NCBI GenBank assembly: GCA_025699025.1
Contig: JAILWJ010000002.1
Location: forward strand, 186,001 to 250,000
DNA from: Nitrosarchaeum sp.
GTDB taxonomy: Archaea > Thermoproteota > Nitrososphaeria > Nitrososphaerales > Nitrosopumilaceae
DNA: 64,000 nt
Direction: 5' to 3'
The notes under the pieces were generated by a model. It worked only from the letters and a program-made list of their open reading frames with translations, was not told the DNA's origin and made no database searches. Position numbers and translations under genes: made by a program. Shown piece after piece: positions 53,882 to 64,000 of this stretch (position 1 is its first letter; each line of letters begins with the position of its first letter).

Positions 53882-53958
53882 GGGTCTATGGCGCAGCCAG
53901 GTAGCGCACCGGACTCTTAATCCGGTTGTCGTGGGTCCGAATCCCACTAGACCCGCCA
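53882..53958 (+). tRNA. tRNA-Lys (anticodon CUU) with encoded CCA; integration target
   Basis: The cloverleaf has acceptor GGGTCTA/TAGACCC, anticodon stem CCGGA/TCCGG with loop CTCTTAA (anticodon CTT), and T arm GTGGG-TCCGAAT-CCCAC. The discriminator is G and CCA is encoded at 53956-53958. The recombinase gene begins 43 bases downstream, and GACCCGCCA from the tRNA end recurs at 53980-53988, so the 3' half is the likely attachment site. Confidence 0.95.
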
Positions 53959-53970
53959 TCCTTATTGGTC

Positions 53971-53978
53971 TTAAAATA
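53971..53978 (+). promoter_or_regulatory. TATA box of the integrase gene
   Basis: TTAAAATA lies between the tRNA-Lys and the recombinase, about 27 bases before TTG 54001. It argues against the longer reading frame that runs back into the tRNA. Confidence 0.5.
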
Positions 53979-54000
53979 CGACCCGCCACATTATGTATCA

Positions 54001-55401
54001 TTGAAGATAAACTATGATGACATCAACAGCAGAAACAATCCATACCAGTTATTCTTGGATAACATCAAGAGTCCAGAGACTGCAAGAAAATACAAAAAGA
54101 TGCTAGAGAGGTTTCTGCTATCCATTCCAGATCAGGTATATGAAAATACAAAGGTAAAGTCAGATCTTAAAAGCATGGTAAAGCATTTTGTTGCCCTTGC
54201 AAAAAAGAATCCAGATTTGGCAACTGACATCATTGCAACATACATCAAAGAGGAAAAGAAACTGGTAGAATCAGGACTATTAAGTTCAGGAACACTAGAG
54301 AATCATATCAAGCCAATCAAGGTGCTACTTGATGCAAACAGAATCGCCATACACTGGAAGTCACTGTACAGGCTGTACCCAAGAAAGCAGAGCACCACAA
54401 ATGACAGGGCATACACAAGAGCAGAACTGCAAAATATGCTAGAGGTTGCACGAGACCTCACAGACAAGGTGATAATTACCGTATTCTCATCAGGGGGATT
54501 CAGGCTAGAGGCGTGGAACTATTTTACATGGAAGGATATCAAACTGTTCAAAAATCAAGACGGTTCTCACAAGGGAGGAGCCTTGTTAGTATACAGTAAT
54601 GACGAGGAGAGCTACTGGACTCACATCACTCCAGAGGCTTGCAAATACGTGGAGATGTACCGAGAAAAATGGAAGTCTGACATTGGGGTTTATCCAAAAG
54701 ATGATCAGCCGTTTCTAAAGGCAGTAAAGTATCCCACTATCCACAGGCTGAATTCAACTGGCGTCAAAAAGAGAATCGGAAAAATTGTAAAGGCAATCGG
54801 TATGCGAGATTCATTGCCTGAAGGCAAGAAGAGATACGAGGTTCCACTAGATCACGGGTTTAGAAAATATTTCAACACCATGATGAGGCGTGCCAAGGTA
54901 AACTATCTGGACAAAGAGGACATGATGGGACACAAGGTAGGATTGGAAAAACACTATGAGCGATATCAGGAAGAGGACTTTGAGCGATTCCCCGAGTATC
55001 AAAAGGCAATAGCATTTCTTACCATATCAGATGAGGACAGGCTACGCTTTGAGAACCAGCAAAAGCAAGAGATACTAGATGAGGTTACGCAGAAAGACTA
55101 TCAGATTGAAGACATGTCAGCAAGACTAAGCGAGGTGGAAAACGAGGTGAAAAACGGGCGGAACACAAGATGGAACTCACTTTTCCAAGAATCTTTCAGA
55201 CATCAAGACAATGAGAAGGTACAGCTGATTCTTACCCTGTTGCACATGTGGTTTGAGATGAGGGCAACAGAAGAGGAAAAACAAGCGTTATGGAAGAAGC
55301 TCCAAGACGCAAAAAAGGAAGGAAAACCACTAAACATCATGGATATGTTAGATCCAGACAAGGATGAGCTTAGCTGGAAGAACCTCTACTCCAAAAAGTA
55401 A
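54001..55401 (+). CDS. int: Tyrosine recombinase (integrase)
   Basis: This protein has about 466 residues and starts at TTG 54001 (MKINYDDINSRNNPYQ). An N-terminal core-binding domain (SPETARKYKKMLERFL) is followed by the catalytic domain: Arg in SSGGFRLEAW, HxxR in LDHGFRKYF, His in MGHKVGLEKH and the nucleophile in KHYERY. A coiled tail of about 90 residues follows. It would insert or excise DNA at the adjacent tRNA-Lys. The gene is complete, so the element may be mobile. Confidence 0.93.
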   Translation: MKINYDDINSRNNPYQLFLDNIKSPETARKYKKMLERFLLSIPDQVYENTKVKSDLKSMVKHFVALAKKNPDLATDIIATYIKEEKKLVESGLLSSGTLENHIKPIKVLLDANRIAIHWKSLYRLYPRKQSTTNDRAYTRAELQNMLEVARDLTDKVIITVFSSGGFRLEAWNYFTWKDIKLFKNQDGSHKGGALLVYSNDEESYWTHITPEACKYVEMYREKWKSDIGVYPKDDQPFLKAVKYPTIHRLNSTGVKKRIGKIVKAIGMRDSLPEGKKRYEVPLDHGFRKYFNTMMRRAKVNYLDKEDMMGHKVGLEKHYERYQEEDFERFPEYQKAIAFLTISDEDRLRFENQQKQEILDEVTQKDYQIEDMSARLSEVENEVKNGRNTRWNSLFQESFRHQDNEKVQLILTLLHMWFEMRATEEEKQALWKKLQDAKKEGKPLNIMDMLDPDKDELSWKNLYSKK

Positions 55402-57477: not shown

Positions 57478-57681
57478 TTATACATGAGGTTCATCTCCCA
57501 TGCCTTCATGATGCATAACGTGAGTCATCATATCCACACATCGCTCAATGTCATGAATTGGAGCAACTAATCTGTTATCTGAGATTTTGAATCTATCAAG
57601 ATAGTCATTTACAATCTCCAATTTTGCATGACATTCAGCAACTGCATTGTAAAGTATTTCTTCAATGTCTTTGTATTCCAT
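57478..57681 (-). CDS. Small acidic protein, candidate antitoxin
   Basis: This 67-residue helical protein (MEYKDIEEILYNAVAECH ...) has a His/Met-rich end (MMTHVMHHEGMG). Its start shares one base with the stop of the HerA gene, and it lies 30 bases before the RelE/ParE-like gene, the usual antitoxin position. No DNA-binding motif is obvious, so the antitoxin role is inferred from position. Confidence 0.55.
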   Translation of the reverse strand: MEYKDIEEILYNAVAECHAKLEIVNDYLDRFKISDNRLVAPIHDIERCVDMMTHVMHHEGMGDEPHV

Positions 57682-59771
57682 TACTCAATCTCCTCTGGCA
57701 ATGCTTCTTTGTTGCCAATGTATGGAATCTTTAGTCTTGCATTGATTGGTCCCTGGTTTTCACGATTTACTTTAATTGAGATTCTACAGTAACCAGTAGG
57801 TAGTGAGTTAATCTCAGAGACATACTCTTTTCCAAAGTAATCACGAATCCATTTTTCAGAACCAGACAAACCAAAAGCAACTTTGGTATTTGTCAAGTCA
57901 CCAACTTTCTTTGAGACTTCAGTTGGAAGATGAGTTACTAGTGTTACACCATATTTTCTCTTTCTTCCTCTATTTGTAATGTCTTCCATTCTTTCTGCAA
58001 TTCTTTGAACAAAGTCTTTCTCACCTTTTGATGGACTTTGTGGGAATAGTTGTTCAGCCTCATCAATTACAAGTAATACTCCTGGATCTACGTTTGGAGT
58101 ATTCATCTTGTATTGGTCTAAGAGTTGAAGCAAATACAAGACAACAACTCTTTTCATGTTATGGTCAAGGCTATGATAATCAATCACAGTAATTGAGCCA
58201 GGTTTGAATAGAAGTTGAGGAGTAAGTGGAGTCTTGTCTTTTTGATCAAGCATGTTCAAACTTGGTGAGAGAACGGCTCTAGCTATTGCGGGTCTTTGTG
58301 AGATATGAACTAGACTTGAGCGATTTACTTCAGCTAATAGTCTTGTTCTTAGTGTCTCAATATCTTGTGGAGCTTGTTCTTGATCAATTTGGTTTCCGAC
58401 ATGACTGATCAGTAGGCGTAGTATGTTTTCAGTTCTTGATTCTACTTCAGGCATAAGATAGATTGTATCTTGTCTAGAGATGCCACGAAGACTAAGTGTA
58501 GCGTCAGATTTTACAGGATCCTTGTGTAAAGAGTAGATTTTAGGCTTGATGTCACCTATTCCATACTTTTCAAGGAAGTTAATTGATGATTGTATCATCT
58601 CTGATTTTTTAGCAAAATCAGTGTACTCGGGTTCCCCATCCAGAATAATTACTGCAGGTCTCTTATCTGCAGGAATATGCTTGTTAGAACAAAGGCTCTT
58701 TACCATTAATTTGATAAAGTTTGATTTTCCTTTTCCTTGAACTCCTGCTACTAACATTGATTGATAGATTGTATCCATTGGCTTTAGTGGATACAAAAAT
58801 GGTTCACCACCACCATTGTAGTCTAGTTTACCAATTGGCATTCCAAAGTCTGGAATGTTTAGGACATCTAGAAGTTCTTTATCAGATGGCCTTCTGATGA
58901 TAAATCCTGACAGGTCTGTGGGTCTTGGTCTTCCATCATAGTCTGCTGCAACTTCTCTGAGTGGTCTGAATAGTACATGTGTTACTACCTCAGAAAACTG
59001 ATGTACATAACCCCCGCCGGATAGTGGATTCATGTTTATCTTTGCCACACGAGAAAAGATCTTCTTTTGTTCTTCCTGGTTTTCTAAAACCAAGATATCT
59101 AATGGTTGAACTGTCTTTGCATGTTGTTCATACAGAAATCCCTTGATTTCGTCTTGTTCTTGTTCTGATTTTAGTACATATTGATCCTTTTTGCTAAACA
59201 AAACCTTTCCAAGAATTGTCTCATCGATCTTATCATTTCTCTCAGTTAGTTTTACTGAAACAATCTCTTGTGGTTTCTTTGGCAGTAGTTCTGGTCCTTT
59301 CACTATAACATCAATACAAGGAATTTCATAGTCTTGTTCTGCTTCAATTTGTGCCTTGATAGAATCAAATTCGTCTTCAGTAGATGGCGAGAAAACCCAT
59401 GCAACACTTCTTTGTGGGTCTTGCTTTACTACAATGTCATAGTGACGATTATCAGCTAATCTCGCAGATATTACAATTCCATCAAATACATCGTATGCTA
59501 GATAACCATTGATGAATTTCTTGTCTTGAGATAATGATTCAGCAAGAAATGTTATGTTAGCAACTTGTTCTTTGAGTGCTTTTCTGATTGCTTCTTTTTG
59601 CTTTGAATTTTGGTATTTGACCTTAATATCTGAGGCTAATTTCTTTACAGATGCCTTTAACTCATGAAGTTTGGTCTGTTTTTGACCATCCTCTAAGATT
59701 TGACATAATCCGTTATAGAAATATGCCTGGGCACAACGTAAATCATTTTTTTGTAGTAGACTAGTTTGCAT
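57681..59771 (-). CDS. HerA/FtsK-family DUF87 ATPase, DNA translocase
   Basis: This protein has about 696 residues and starts MQTSLLQKNDLRC; an upstream ATG at 59795 would deepen the overlap with the nuclease gene. The N-terminal part is charged and helical with a likely HAS-barrel region. Walker A is AGVQGKGKSN near residue 345, Walker B LLVIDEAEQLFP near 570, and the later TNRGRKRKYGVTLVTHLP carries sensor and arginine-finger residues. HerA hexamers pump DNA to a partner nuclease. The Cas4-like protein next to it is the natural candidate. Confidence 0.88.
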   Translation of the reverse strand: MQTSLLQKNDLRCAQAYFYNGLCQILEDGQKQTKLHELKASVKKLASDIKVKYQNSKQKEAIRKALKEQVANITFLAESLSQDKKFINGYLAYDVFDGIVISARLADNRHYDIVVKQDPQRSVAWVFSPSTEDEFDSIKAQIEAEQDYEIPCIDVIVKGPELLPKKPQEIVSVKLTERNDKIDETILGKVLFSKKDQYVLKSEQEQDEIKGFLYEQHAKTVQPLDILVLENQEEQKKIFSRVAKINMNPLSGGGYVHQFSEVVTHVLFRPLREVAADYDGRPRPTDLSGFIIRRPSDKELLDVLNIPDFGMPIGKLDYNGGGEPFLYPLKPMDTIYQSMLVAGVQGKGKSNFIKLMVKSLCSNKHIPADKRPAVIILDGEPEYTDFAKKSEMIQSSINFLEKYGIGDIKPKIYSLHKDPVKSDATLSLRGISRQDTIYLMPEVESRTENILRLLISHVGNQIDQEQAPQDIETLRTRLLAEVNRSSLVHISQRPAIARAVLSPSLNMLDQKDKTPLTPQLLFKPGSITVIDYHSLDHNMKRVVVLYLLQLLDQYKMNTPNVDPGVLLVIDEAEQLFPQSPSKGEKDFVQRIAERMEDITNRGRKRKYGVTLVTHLPTEVSKKVGDLTNTKVAFGLSGSEKWIRDYFGKEYVSEINSLPTGYCRISIKVNRENQGPINARLKIPYIGNKEALPEEIE

Positions 59772-60678
59772 GATTTGCACCCCCAAACAAATCAAATCTT
59801 TGATCAGATCCTTGTAAGAGTCTGTCTATCCATTCAATCTCACCTTGTTCACGAGCAAGCTTAAAACATTGTTCTCTTGCATAACAATGTCGACATTTTG
59901 CAGCATCTTCTTTAGGTAACATTGGAGGAATTTCTGCTCTTTCAATTAGTTCTCTTGCAGTTGTAATCTTTTCGATAAGTTGGATTTTTTCATCTACATT
60001 TGCTTTGAATGTTTCATAAGATAGGTCTTGTGTGTAAAATATTCTAGCTTCTGGAGCTGGTATATCAAAGTTTTCTTCAAGCATTATGCAGTAACATAGA
60101 AGTTGTGTCTTGTGTGAATCTTTTTGTAATAGTGTTTTGAACTTTGATTGATGTGTCTTGATGTCTTCTGGTATTATGTATATGCCATCATTGTAAATTG
60201 CATCAACTCTTCCATAAAGACCAAATTTGTTACTGAAAACTTTTTCTTCAGTCTTCCAGGGCAACATGACAGATACAATATGATCTATGCTAAATCCTTC
60301 ATGAAGTAATTTTAGCATATTTTTTTCTTGTATTGCTAACCATAGATCTAGTCGGTATGTTAGATCCTGCATGTATTTTTTAAGATCTAGTGCATGTGAT
60401 GGATGATTCTCAAGTGATAAATTAAACACATGAGAAAGGGTTCCATTAATAGAATCTTGACTAATTGCACTCAATGTAGTTGCAGGTGACCATTCTCTCC
60501 AAGCAACATCAAAGGCTTCAGCCAAAAGTCTCCAGGCCTCATGCTCAACGTTTCCTTGAACTGTAGGAAGATTTGAGATAAAACCGTGTTGTGGCATTGT
60601 TTTGTTGATAAAAAAAAGTCTTGGGCAGTATGCCATTGCTGCCATATTTGTGGGAGTAAGTGCTAATGATGATTGCAT
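59761..60678 (-). CDS. Cas4-like PD-(D/E)XK nuclease with Fe-S cysteines
   Basis: This is a 305-residue protein. N-terminal AYCPRLFFINK holds the first Fe-S cysteine. The nuclease core has VDAIYNDGIYIIPEDIKTH (GxxD, then ExK-like D-I-K) and a downstream QLLCYCIMLEE helix. The C-terminus KCRHCYAREQC gives three more cysteines. This is the Cas4/AddB arrangement. No CRISPR or other cas gene is nearby. Its end overlaps the HerA gene by 11 bases, implying a joint complex. Confidence 0.83.
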   Translation of the reverse strand: MQSSLALTPTNMAAMAYCPRLFFINKTMPQHGFISNLPTVQGNVEHEAWRLLAEAFDVAWREWSPATTLSAISQDSINGTLSHVFNLSLENHPSHALDLKKYMQDLTYRLDLWLAIQEKNMLKLLHEGFSIDHIVSVMLPWKTEEKVFSNKFGLYGRVDAIYNDGIYIIPEDIKTHQSKFKTLLQKDSHKTQLLCYCIMLEENFDIPAPEARIFYTQDLSYETFKANVDEKIQLIEKITTARELIERAEIPPMLPKEDAAKCRHCYAREQCFKLAREQGEIEWIDRLLQGSDQRFDLFGGANHAN

Positions 60679-60765: not shown

Positions 60766-60782
60766 ATAATGGCGCCATTATT
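60766..60782. promoter_or_regulatory. Palindromic operator candidate 1
   Basis: ATAATGGCGCCATTAT is a perfect 16-base palindrome. It lies about 88 bases before the nuclease start codon on the minus strand and upstream of its TATA-like element (revcomp of TTTTAATC, about 60725). Confidence 0.7.
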
Positions 60783-60821: not shown

Positions 60822-60838
60822 ATTATGGCGCCATTATT
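60822..60838. promoter_or_regulatory. Palindromic operator candidate 2
   Basis: ATTATGGCGCCATTATT repeats site 1 with a single base change, 56 bases further on. It ends 10 bases before the TATA-like TTTAATA (60848-60854) of the response regulator gene, whose GTG start lies 26 bases further on. Confidence 0.7.
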
Positions 60839-60876: not shown

Positions 60877-61857
60877 GTGCCTCAAACTAAAGAGATTCCT
60901 AGACTGTCAACGTCTGAGATGGATGAAATTGTATTTGAGACAATTAAACAAAATCCCGGCTCAACTTCTCGTCAAATTAGATTAATCCTGGAAGATGATC
61001 CTAGAGGTATTTTCAAAGAATCATTCTTGATCAATTCACTAAAACGCTTAGAAGAAGAACAAAGAAGAATTGTTAAACGAGCAAAAAAGGAATTTGAACA
61101 TGGAAAAATTGTAAGGAAGTATTTTGTTAGAGATGAAGATTCAGAATTTCAATTTCATTTAAAACTAGGAAAAGATATTCTTGAAGAAATAATTGAGTAT
61201 AATTCAAATCAGAGAATTTTTGCATTTGCTACTGGTAAAAAAACAATAGCCATAGCTTTAGAAAATAATGAGTATTATAAAAAAACTGCAAAGTTTTATG
61301 AGTCATTAGAAAAAATGGAAGAAAACGATTTAGTAAAACTCAGATTTCCTGATGTATTCGTTGAATTTTATGGACTTATACCTCATAGTTACTCAATTCA
61401 ATATCTACCACCTGATGAAAACAAAGCAATAAGAATTGAAATTATAGAGAATGTAGAATCACAGAAAGATTATGAACCAAAAAAAACAAAAAGGATTTTA
61501 ATTTTAGAAGATGAAGAAGATTATTGTGAAGATTTAGTAACTCGATTAGAAGATGAAGGTCATATTGTTGAATATGCAAAAGATATCACCAGTTTTTTAG
61601 AAAAACTTGAAAAAAAATCATTTGACTTTGTATCTATAGATAAAAGAATTGTAAGTGAAACTGATGAAAAAAATATTGCAGGCAAGATGTTCTTTGAGGT
61701 TTTAAAAGCATGTCCCAATGCAGAGGTTGGTCTTTTAACGAATAAATTAGAAAAATCAGAAGAAGATTATTTTACAAAATTAGGGTTTAAGACGATTTTA
61801 AGAAAAAAAGAAAAACGGACAGGAGATCAATTAGTTAAAATTTTAAGAGCATTATGA
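60877..61857 (+). CDS. Winged-helix response regulator with C-terminal receiver domain
   Basis: This 326-residue protein starts at GTG. Residues 8-75 form a winged helix (MDEIVFETIKQNPGSTSRQIRLIL ... LINSLKRLEEE). Residues 85-195 are an unknown alpha/beta domain. Residues 207-325 are a receiver domain with acidic pair LEDEED, phospho-acceptor Asp in VSIDKRIV, Thr in GLLTNK and Lys in ILRKKE, all intact. Its stop overlaps the start of the dual GHKL protein by one base. DNA-binding output is at the N-terminus, the reverse of most bacterial regulators. Confidence 0.82.
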   Translation: MPQTKEIPRLSTSEMDEIVFETIKQNPGSTSRQIRLILEDDPRGIFKESFLINSLKRLEEEQRRIVKRAKKEFEHGKIVRKYFVRDEDSEFQFHLKLGKDILEEIIEYNSNQRIFAFATGKKTIAIALENNEYYKKTAKFYESLEKMEENDLVKLRFPDVFVEFYGLIPHSYSIQYLPPDENKAIRIEIIENVESQKDYEPKKTKRILILEDEEDYCEDLVTRLEDEGHIVEYAKDITSFLEKLEKKSFDFVSIDKRIVSETDEKNIAGKMFFEVLKACPNAEVGLLTNKLEKSEEDYFTKLGFKTILRKKEKRTGDQLVKILRAL

Positions 61858-64000
61858 TGAGTCACAAAGAGAGATTTAGAGTAACAGGAAAAATTACTAG
61901 ACTTTTAGGAAGGGAATCCGTGGCAGATCCAGTTGTAGCGTTATTTGAAGTAATTAAAAATTCTCATGATGCAGATGCATTATCAGTTCACATAAAATTT
62001 GACACAATTAGTGGAAATAATAAAATCATCATAAAAGAGAAATTTGGAGATGGAATGACATATGAACAAATCAAAAATGATTTTTTAGTCATAGGGACTT
62101 ATGCTAAACAAGCAATAAAAGGAAGACCAAAAAAAACTAGGAGGTTAAAAAGACCAATGATGGGTCAAAAAGGAGTTGGTCGATTTGCATTGGAAAAATT
62201 AGGTAGCAAGGCAACAATTATCTCAAAACCAATTGGAACATTAGATAAATTTACGTTTACAATTGATTGGGATAGATTTGAGCCTGAAAATGTTACTGTA
62301 GATATGATTCCAATTACCATACACAAAGATAAAAGAATAGATAAAAAAGATTCAGGACTAGAAATTGAAATAAAAGGGTTAAGAGACAATTGGACATCTC
62401 AAAAAATTAAAGAATTAATTACTTATTTACAAAGTTTCATATTACCGAGACAACTTCAACCAAGAAATTCATTCAATATTGAGTTAGAAGCTCCAGCTCA
62501 AGGAATAGAAAAAAGAGAGATAGATCCTCAATTAGATGAGAAAGCATTTTTTAGTTTATCCGTTAACTATGCAAAAAATGCAGATCATTTTCTAATTAGC
62601 GCAGAAAAAATGGGAAGATCATACATCAAAAAACAAAAAAGAGAAACATTTCGTTCTCATTTAACTGGAGAGATAAGAAATGTTTCAGATCTAAAATGTG
62701 GACCTGTGAAATTGTATGTTTATTATTTTCCAACATTTAAAAAAGCTGAAAAATATCCACAACTAGAAGAGGAGTATTATAGAAAAGCCATTGACTACTA
62801 CACAGAAATGTTTTATAATCAAATACCTGAAATCATGCAAGATAAACAGGGAGTCAAAATTTATCGTGCTGCAGGTATAAGAGAGTTCCAATATGGAGAT
62901 CCCGGGAATGATTGGGTCGATAGAGGAAAAATTAGCAGAAATCTAGCAGGAACTATGCAAGCAGATAGGATTATTGGATTTTGTATTTTACCGAATAATC
63001 CAGAAATTATTGCAACTACGAATAGAAGAGAAGCTGTTGAGAATGAGGCTTTCTTAGATTTAAAAGATTTAGTAATTTCATCCATGAAGATTTTAGATCA
63101 AAAAATTAGTGATGATAGAGCCAAATTATATGCTGAAGCAAAAGAAGAAGATGAAAAAAATAAAGAAAAATTAAAAAATGAATTAACAGAAATTTTAGAA
63201 ACCAAAACAGATGAGTCAGAAAAAACACAACAATATAAAAATGAAATTCTTACTAAAGCAAAAAAAGTCATAGATGAAAGTCTTAATGAGGAAGAAACGG
63301 AGACTACAATTAGAGAAATAGAATTAGCTCATGCAATTGTTGGACATTTTATTTCAAAATTATATCATGATTTTGTTGCATCAGGAATTCAAACAATTAC
63401 TAATCAAATTGGAATTTTAGAAGATCATGTTAAGGGAGTTAGTCCTAGAACTCCTGATAAATTAGAATCAGTGATAGAGAAATTAAGAAAAAAATGGGAT
63501 AAAATTTCAATAATTTTTGATGCACTTGATAATATAGAACGTGGTGTAGGTGTTGAAAATTACTATAAAAGAGAAAAAGTGGACATTCTGGTAAAAGATG
63601 AAATCCAGACAATTTTTGAAGATTTACAAGAGCTTACAGGATTTGATAATATTTTATTGGAGAACAAGATAAATAGAAATTTAGAAATTTGGACATATGG
63701 ACCAATATTTTATTCAATTGTGTATAATCTATTAACAAATTCATTGAAAGCATTAATGAAAAGTAAGCCAAAAGATAGAGAAAATTGGATTTTTGTAAAA
63801 TCAGAAGTTGATGAAAAACATCTAAAATTAATTTTTGCAGATAATTCTACAATTCCAATTCCTGAAAATAGATGGAAAGTGGTTTTTGATCCCTGGATTT
63901 CTACCACTACAAGAATTGATAATAAGAAATTCAGAGGTAAAGGAATTGGTTTATCAATATGTAAAGAAATTTTGAAATTTGTAAAAGGGGAAATTAGTAT
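61857..64000 (+). CDS. Large sensor-kinase-like protein with two GHKL ATPase modules (3' truncated by window edge)
   Basis: The frame is open from ATG 61857 to the right edge, about 714 residues. The N-terminal GHKL/MORC-like ATPase has ALFEVIKNSHDADA (N box), GDGMTYEQI and GQKGVGRFALEKLG. A central region follows, then a charged coiled coil (about 420-480). A possible H box in SKLYHDFVASGIQTI precedes a histidine-kinase ATPase with YNLLTNSLKAL (N box) and GKGIGLSICKEI (G box). There is no membrane segment, so it is a cytosolic sensor. It is coupled to the response regulator gene just upstream. Confidence 0.8.
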   Translation, partial: MSHKERFRVTGKITRLLGRESVADPVVALFEVIKNSHDADALSVHIKFDTISGNNKIIIKEKFGDGMTYEQIKNDFLVIGTYAKQAIKGRPKKTRRLKRPMMGQKGVGRFALEKLGSKATIISKPIGTLDKFTFTIDWDRFEPENVTVDMIPITIHKDKRIDKKDSGLEIEIKGLRDNWTSQKIKELITYLQSFILPRQLQPRNSFNIELEAPAQGIEKREIDPQLDEKAFFSLSVNYAKNADHFLISAEKMGRSYIKKQKRETFRSHLTGEIRNVSDLKCGPVKLYVYYFPTFKKAEKYPQLEEEYYRKAIDYYTEMFYNQIPEIMQDKQGVKIYRAAGIREFQYGDPGNDWVDRGKISRNLAGTMQADRIIGFCILPNNPEIIATTNRREAVENEAFLDLKDLVISSMKILDQKISDDRAKLYAEAKEEDEKNKEKLKNELTEILETKTDESEKTQQYKNEILTKAKKVIDESLNEEETETTIREIELAHAIVGHFISKLYHDFVASGIQTITNQIGILEDHVKGVSPRTPDKLESVIEKLRKKWDKISIIFDALDNIERGVGVENYYKREKVDILVKDEIQTIFEDLQELTGFDNILLENKINRNLEIWTYGPIFYSIVYNLLTNSLKALMKSKPKDRENWIFVKSEVDEKHLKLIFADNSTIPIPENRWKVVFDPWISTTTRIDNKKFRGKGIGLSICKEILKFVKGEIS

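Follow-up and report, generated by a model that had tools for sequence, protein, structure and literature searches.

What is the task of a cytosolic protein that carries two different GHKL ATPase modules in one chain? The question is raised by a gene at the right-hand end of a 64,000-nucleotide stretch of Nitrosarchaeum sp. DNA (hereafter the window). A preliminary description, based on the letters alone, proposed an intracellular sensor of DNA state that signals by phosphorylation. We observe the architecture of the protein, a partner gene beside it and a DNA-methylation cassette around both. The explanation that we favour, with a probability of about 0.55, is that the protein is a soluble histidine kinase with a MORC/paraMORC-type GHKL-S5 ATPase as sensor, that it and the receiver protein encoded upstream make up a two-component system, and that this system, with its HTH-REC regulator, would convert a DNA-state signal into a transcriptional output within a restriction-modification-type cassette.

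Domains and motifs of the dual-GHKL kinase

The reading frame is open at the window end, with its first 715 residues inside the window; the whole genome supplied the rest of the gene, which stops at window-equivalent position 64076 and encodes 740 aa. The start given in the preliminary description (61857) lies one codon from the first ATG (61854). The features of the gene are as follows.

61854-64000, plus strand: dual-GHKL soluble histidine kinase, 740 aa, gene continuing to window-equivalent 64076 (reading frame and whole genome)
61890-62381, plus strand: module 1, GHKL ATPase fold of MORC/MutL type (residues 13-176), with an altered G1 box, EKFGDGM (Pfam, AlphaFold, Foldseek, family alignment)
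62475-63038, plus strand: S5-like middle domain, about residues 208-395 (alignments, Foldseek)
63045-63287, plus strand: helical linker or coiled coil, residues 398-478 (AlphaFold secondary structure)
63288-63545, plus strand: DHp (H-box) helices, residues 479-564 (His conservation, AlphaFold, HK853 match)
63366-63368, plus strand: predicted phospho-acceptor His505 (alignment, 98% conserved His)
63579-64000, plus strand, running past the window: module 2, catalytic ATPase of the histidine kinase (residues 576-734), with N and G2 boxes preserved and a changed G1 box, DNSTIP (Pfam HATPase_c, alignment, AlphaFold, Foldseek)

The presence of two different GHKL modules, as first described, is confirmed by Pfam matches above cut-off to HATPase_c_3 (residues 28-168, E 1.1e-15) and HATPase_c (residues 620-734, 3.6e-16). 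An AlphaFold2 model built on 62 homologues (mean pLDDT 80.6) starts at the N-terminus with a Bergerat-fold ATPase, continues through a middle domain and long helices, among them the coiled coil expected between the modules, and ends in a kinase core. Foldseek searches against the PDB match the N-terminal part to the ATPase modules of SMCHD1, MORC3 and MORC2 (TM-score by target 0.43-0.54), in agreement with the proposed MORC type; these matches span the ATPase and middle domains. The C-terminal third resembles histidine kinase HK853 (TM-score by target 0.64). Hydropathy analysis reveals no membrane segment in the kinase, again as proposed: its highest 19-residue mean is 0.97, whereas a membrane kinase encoded in the same genome reaches 3.4. 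A classical membrane or PAS sensor kinase is ruled out by the lack of a hydrophobic segment and by the N-terminal MORC fold. Identity as a BbrUII/HgiDII-family restriction enzyme (NF050001) is also ruled out: the N-terminal GHKL region of these enzymes aligns with kinase residues 30-221 at 63.2 bits, far short of the required 550, and a nuclease domain was not found in the kinase.

Motif conservation is uneven. In module 1, the N box (E32, K35, N36, D39) and the G2 box (GQKGVGR) are intact, as the preliminary description had them, but the GDGM that it also listed is not a canonical G1 box: this copy reads E-K-F-G-D-G-M where relatives have D-N-G-x-G-M (DxGxGM), and the G1 Asp, present in 97% of the family, is absent. 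The ATP pocket of this module, required in the preliminary description, keeps the N and G2 boxes but has the G1 Asp replaced. The C-terminal ATPase stands as a histidine-kinase module by its N box (N625, N629), its G2 box (GKGIGL) and its HK853-like fold; its G1 box is altered to DNSTIP, compared to DNGxGI in relatives. The proposed H box in SKLYHDF is borne out by H505 (YHDF): its alignment column holds a His in 98% of 89 homologues. The next residue is D506 here and Glu in 88% of the 89 relatives. An initial alignment pairing had placed the H box at the His of GHF, which was dropped because the 89-sequence alignment puts it on H505. The S5-like middle domain holds the family motif G-x-YR-x-G-x-PYG-x-DW, degenerate in this copy (YRAAGIREFQYG).

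This copy also lies on a long branch of the kinase tree (2.15), the placement of which is unsure. The linked N6/N4 methyltransferase shares 47-62% identity with its counterparts next to five relatives, although the kinases of those relatives are just 22-29% identical to this one, which implies either that the kinase evolves much faster than the methyltransferase or that modules have been exchanged. ATP binding by this copy is uncertain because both G1 boxes are altered; together with the long branch, this suggests that it may be slow, ATP-independent or decaying. A degenerate kinase that has lost proper ATP binding would account for the missing G1 Asp, DNSTIP, the altered S5 motif and the branch length. 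We nevertheless regard such a loss as quite unlikely: the 740-aa frame is intact, the N and G2 boxes and H505 are kept along with D255, K305 and T288 of the partner, and the overlap of kinase and regulator genes is preserved.

Partner regulator and mobile methylation cassette

The partner regulator (60877-61857), the DNA methyltransferase (window-equivalent 64082-65095) and the mobile element that carries both are additions to the preliminary description. The main features are listed from left to right.

53882-53958, plus strand: tRNA-Lys(CTT), insertion site of the element, with the left TCCCACTAGACCCGC core copy at 53942-53956
53926-55401, plus strand: tyrosine-recombinase integrase, left end of the element (XerA_Arch 7.3e-8)
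57681-59795, minus strand: HerA/DUF87 ATPase overlapping the nuclease gene, a possible effector or neighbouring unit (DUF87 7.9e-14)
59761-60678, minus strand: Cas4-like PD-(D/E)XK nuclease, transcribed away from the regulator-kinase operon (PDDEXK_1 5.8e-11; TIGR00372 cas4 4e-17, just under cut-off; PADLOC Cas4)
60766-60781, no strand: perfect 16-nt palindrome ATAATGGCGCCATTAT, candidate operator (genome-wide site search)
60822-60837, no strand: second palindrome copy ATTATGGCGCCATTAT with 1 mismatch, candidate operator, followed closely by a TATA-like TTTAATA and then the start of the regulator
60877-61857, plus strand: partner response regulator, 326 aa, its stop overlapping the kinase start (profile, structure model)
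61639-61641, plus strand: predicted phospho-Asp D255 of the regulator, invariant in 85/85 receivers
window-equivalent 64082-65095, just past the window, convergent with the kinase and 5-6 bp after its gene end: N6/N4 methyltransferase (PADLOC type II methyltransferase 1e-71)

The regulator has N-terminal HTH-like helices (residues 12-74), an unmodelled middle (residues 76-200) and a C-terminal receiver (residues 205-325). The receiver matches Response_reg just below the 30.2 cut-off (2.7e-6, 28 bits); it is modelled confidently, has structural matches to many receivers, and contains the conserved acidic pair (E211, D212), Asp (D255), Thr/Ser (T288) and Lys (K305). The three N-terminal helices resemble a winged HTH (pLDDT about 70-79) and have no profile match. 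On the strength of this model, the regulator seems to have a DNA-binding domain. Relatives of its N-terminal 200 residues were found neither in 398 genomes nor among solved structures. Shedu identity was considered and rejected, with the SduA match limited to the receiver-like stretch.

The two palindromes lie between the nuclease start (60678, minus strand) and the regulator start (60877, plus strand) and are the only sites at ≤1 mismatch in the 1.7-Mb genome. With an HTH-like regulator encoded next to genome-unique candidate operators, the arrangement points to local control over transcription of the two operons; the palindromes could also belong to some other regulator of the element. In a housekeeping circuit, the pair would set only the expression of the methyltransferase and of itself, as a phospho-relay counterpart of a restriction-modification C protein with no antiviral output. 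Candidate operators that are confined, genome-wide, to the promoters of the cassette itself are in keeping with such a circuit, as is the apparent DNA-binding domain. Most receivers of relatives, however, have no recognisable DNA-binding domain, so control of expression is not a role that the family as a whole can share, and we consider a housekeeping circuit rather unlikely. The HTH-REC form was seen in none of the relatives found, and the transcriptional output that we favour here is not generalisable to the family.

The nuclease and HerA genes may or may not belong to the signalling unit. The pair occurs alone in another genome (G444) and so may be an independent neighbour, which argues against an obligate link to the kinase. 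HerA-like genes directly before dual-GHKL genes at four other loci (L057, L065, L100, L102) favour a link. The HerA/DUF87 and Cas4-like nuclease genes (57681-60678, minus strand; L153:8470-10895, minus strand) form a conserved overlapping or adjacent pair with no known name; among 250 genomes of the taxonomic family, just one other has it, at 40% identity.

The element is about 11.6 kb long, is integrated at tRNA-Lys and is bounded by two copies of the 15-bp tRNA 3' core TCCCACTAGACCCGC, of which the right copy lies at window-equivalent 65523-65537 (chance expectation 0.02). The true start of the integrase is probably downstream of the tRNA. In addition to HerA/DUF87 ATPase and Cas4-like nuclease, the element encodes a DUF5615 protein and a ParE/RelE-type toxin. 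GC content is 27-31% across regulator, kinase and methyltransferase compared to about 40% outside. Kinase relatives (E≤1e-20) occur in 15/250 genomes of the taxonomic family and are absent from the other sampled members of the genus. Sporadic presence, low GC and att repeats together indicate mobility. The host is an ammonia-oxidising archaeon, as indicated by its archaeal AmoA gene (2e-118). A phage-gene origin was rejected, with only three weak matches in 50,697 phage records. The element also has an 18-nt perfect palindrome, ATTTTTGCTAGCAAAAAT, at window-equivalent 65358 (L002:4359), inside a small ribbon-helix-helix-like gene (L002:4283-4474). In another genome of the taxonomic family (L149:4322-6089), an N6/N4 methyltransferase of the same type adjoins a kinase remnant of 232 aa and a DUF87-like ATPase, apparently a decayed cassette.

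The wider family of dual-GHKL kinases

A scan with one genome per species yielded at least 549 relatives of the kinase in many phyla. The kinase gene is followed immediately, on the same strand and at a distance of ≤20 nt, by a receiver gene at 84 of the 92 other dual-GHKL loci, and 62 of these receiver genes overlap the kinase gene. The phospho-Asp and the acidic pair are each present in 85/85 partner receivers. With the kinase His and the receiver Asp both conserved, the alignments make phosphotransfer very likely across the family.

The suspected link to restriction systems is supported by DNA-modification genes within 4.5 kb at 80/93 loci (43 N6/N4-type, by motif-based calls, 30 C5 and 7 SspD-type). 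A methyltransferase lies within 1.5 kb of 40/85 dual-GHKL genes, whereas none of 16 ordinary kinases from this archaeal phylum has one that close (Fisher p=1.5e-4), and Vsr endonucleases recur (19 loci). A possible role for the kinase as a sensor of DNA state fits this genomic context.

Kinases of this type could also be mechanical parts of a restriction complex that loop or clamp DNA, as proposed for paraMORCs, with the kinase half serving in allostery or dimerisation and phosphotransfer being minor. The N-terminal module resembles MORC/paraMORC proteins and the BbrUII/HgiDII N-terminus (63 bits), and three loci (L041, L123, L147) encode a large protein in place of the receiver, with a helicase domain shown for L041. 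Conservation of the His (98%) and of the receiver Asp (100%) nevertheless needs continued use of phosphotransfer, and a mechanical role is distinctly improbable.

Family neighbourhoods are varied. At L041:2195-9569 and L147:1814-7391, the dual-GHKL gene stands directly before the large gene, with no receiver, in an arrangement reminiscent of DISARM gene order; at L041, the large helicase-domain gene is followed by an MrfA Zn-binding domain protein. In Bacteroidota, a dual-GHKL kinase and receiver lie beside SspB/C/D-like phosphorothioation genes (L049, L055, L056, L068, L071, L072, L077 and probably L060). An SspD-like motif is present at 7/8 of these loci, and SspC, before the kinase at L049, was confirmed by PADLOC (E 0). 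None of the papers searched combined SspBCD with a histidine kinase. The receivers at L042:10268-11200 and L043:9901-10785 end in RNYLAH and RNQLAH, respectively, and this HEPN-like Rx4H motif suggests a HEPN-like RNase output for these two receivers only. At L117:2614-4044, a short dual-GHKL relative precedes a SIR2-STALD protein (SIR2_2 6e-31, STALD 3e-72), with no receiver.

Proposed mechanism and comparison with known systems

In the two-component system that we favour, a MORC-like dimer would engage DNA, or a modification complex bound to it, in an ATP-dependent manner and would thereby read unmodified or foreign DNA. Engagement would shift the coiled coil and the DHp bundle into an arrangement in which His505 is phosphorylated by the C-terminal ATPase, a step strongly predicted from conservation, and the phosphate is strongly predicted to pass from His505 to Asp255 of the HTH-REC regulator. 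The regulator could then bind the two ATAATGGCGCCATTAT palindromes and alter transcription of the cassette, including that of the Cas4-like nuclease and HerA ATPase. We tentatively extend this scheme, with the odds against it, to a general class of "signalling restriction", in which a MORC-type clamp surveys the mark of a linked enzyme (methyl or phosphorothioate) and starts a His-Asp phosphorelay instead of cutting. Interchangeable receivers would trigger the response; in this element, the two unique palindromic operators would serve to switch on transcription of the genes for the Cas4-like nuclease and HerA.

If this reasoning holds, some restriction-like systems report unmodified DNA by a two-component relay, beyond cutting it, and recognition of self and non-self DNA is linked to gene regulation. 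It would also extend the bacterial pairs to ammonia-oxidising archaea, imply that one kinase type serves both methyl and phosphorothioate marks, and offer a small module amenable to experiment. Because eukaryotic MORC proteins are gene silencers, a prokaryotic MORC module that is coupled to a kinase is also of interest for the way in which these modules recognise modified DNA.

Several known systems share parts of this design. Detocs is a defensive two-component system that likewise uses a histidine kinase and receiver proteins in phage defence. Unlike this locus, its kinase has a TPR-type sensor, its effector cleaves ATP, and it is not known to include a MORC module or a methyltransferase. 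ParaMORC GHKL-S5 ATPases occur in restriction-modification operons and have nuclease, TIR or unknown C-termini (Iyer, Abhiman and Aravind 2008, PMC2292703). They share the N-terminal GHKL and S5-like module, the restriction-modification neighbourhood and the patchy distribution, whereas the C-terminal part of our protein is a complete histidine-kinase core. VcSduA, a GHKL-Shedu (paraMORC3) GHKL-nuclease, restricts phage and loses this activity on ATPase-site mutation (PMC12137116). It shares a soluble GHKL N-terminal module and a clamp-like middle domain that controls a C-terminal output, but that output is a fused PD-(D/E)XK nuclease rather than a kinase with a separate receiver. By analogy only, VcSduA supports a defence role for this kinase.

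The closest counterparts are soluble bacterial kinases with HATPase_c_3, HEF_HK and HATPase_c domains, which have Response_reg_2 partners and restriction-modification genes and for which a paraMORC origin was proposed (Bellieny-Rabelo, Pretorius and Moleleki 2021, PMC8011034). The preliminary description named a known, broadly distributed sensor with a described role as counting against its reading; this applies to the architecture, already described there, though not to a tested role. Shared features are the N-terminal HATPase_c_3, the His-(E/D) DHp, the C-terminal HATPase_c, solubility and the adjoining receiver gene. The published pairs have a C5 or N6/N4 methyltransferase, often with Vsr, nearby, and this copy adjoins an N6/N4 methyltransferase. 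It differs in being archaeal, in its regulator-kinase gene order and in its altered G1 boxes; its receiver is at the C-terminus of an HTH-like protein, whereas the Response_reg_2 partner carries no other domain. This kinase has no match to HEF_HK (PF19191) at E≤1, and its partner does not match Response_reg_2 (PF19192); a genome search with HEF_HK was silent in targets and controls alike and so is uninformative alone. HEF_HK is matched by 7/62 homologues, and the partner at L057 matches PF19192 at 2e-5, which places the published families within the dual-GHKL family. Kinase and partner, which match neither profile, therefore represent a divergent archaeal variant of a kind already described.
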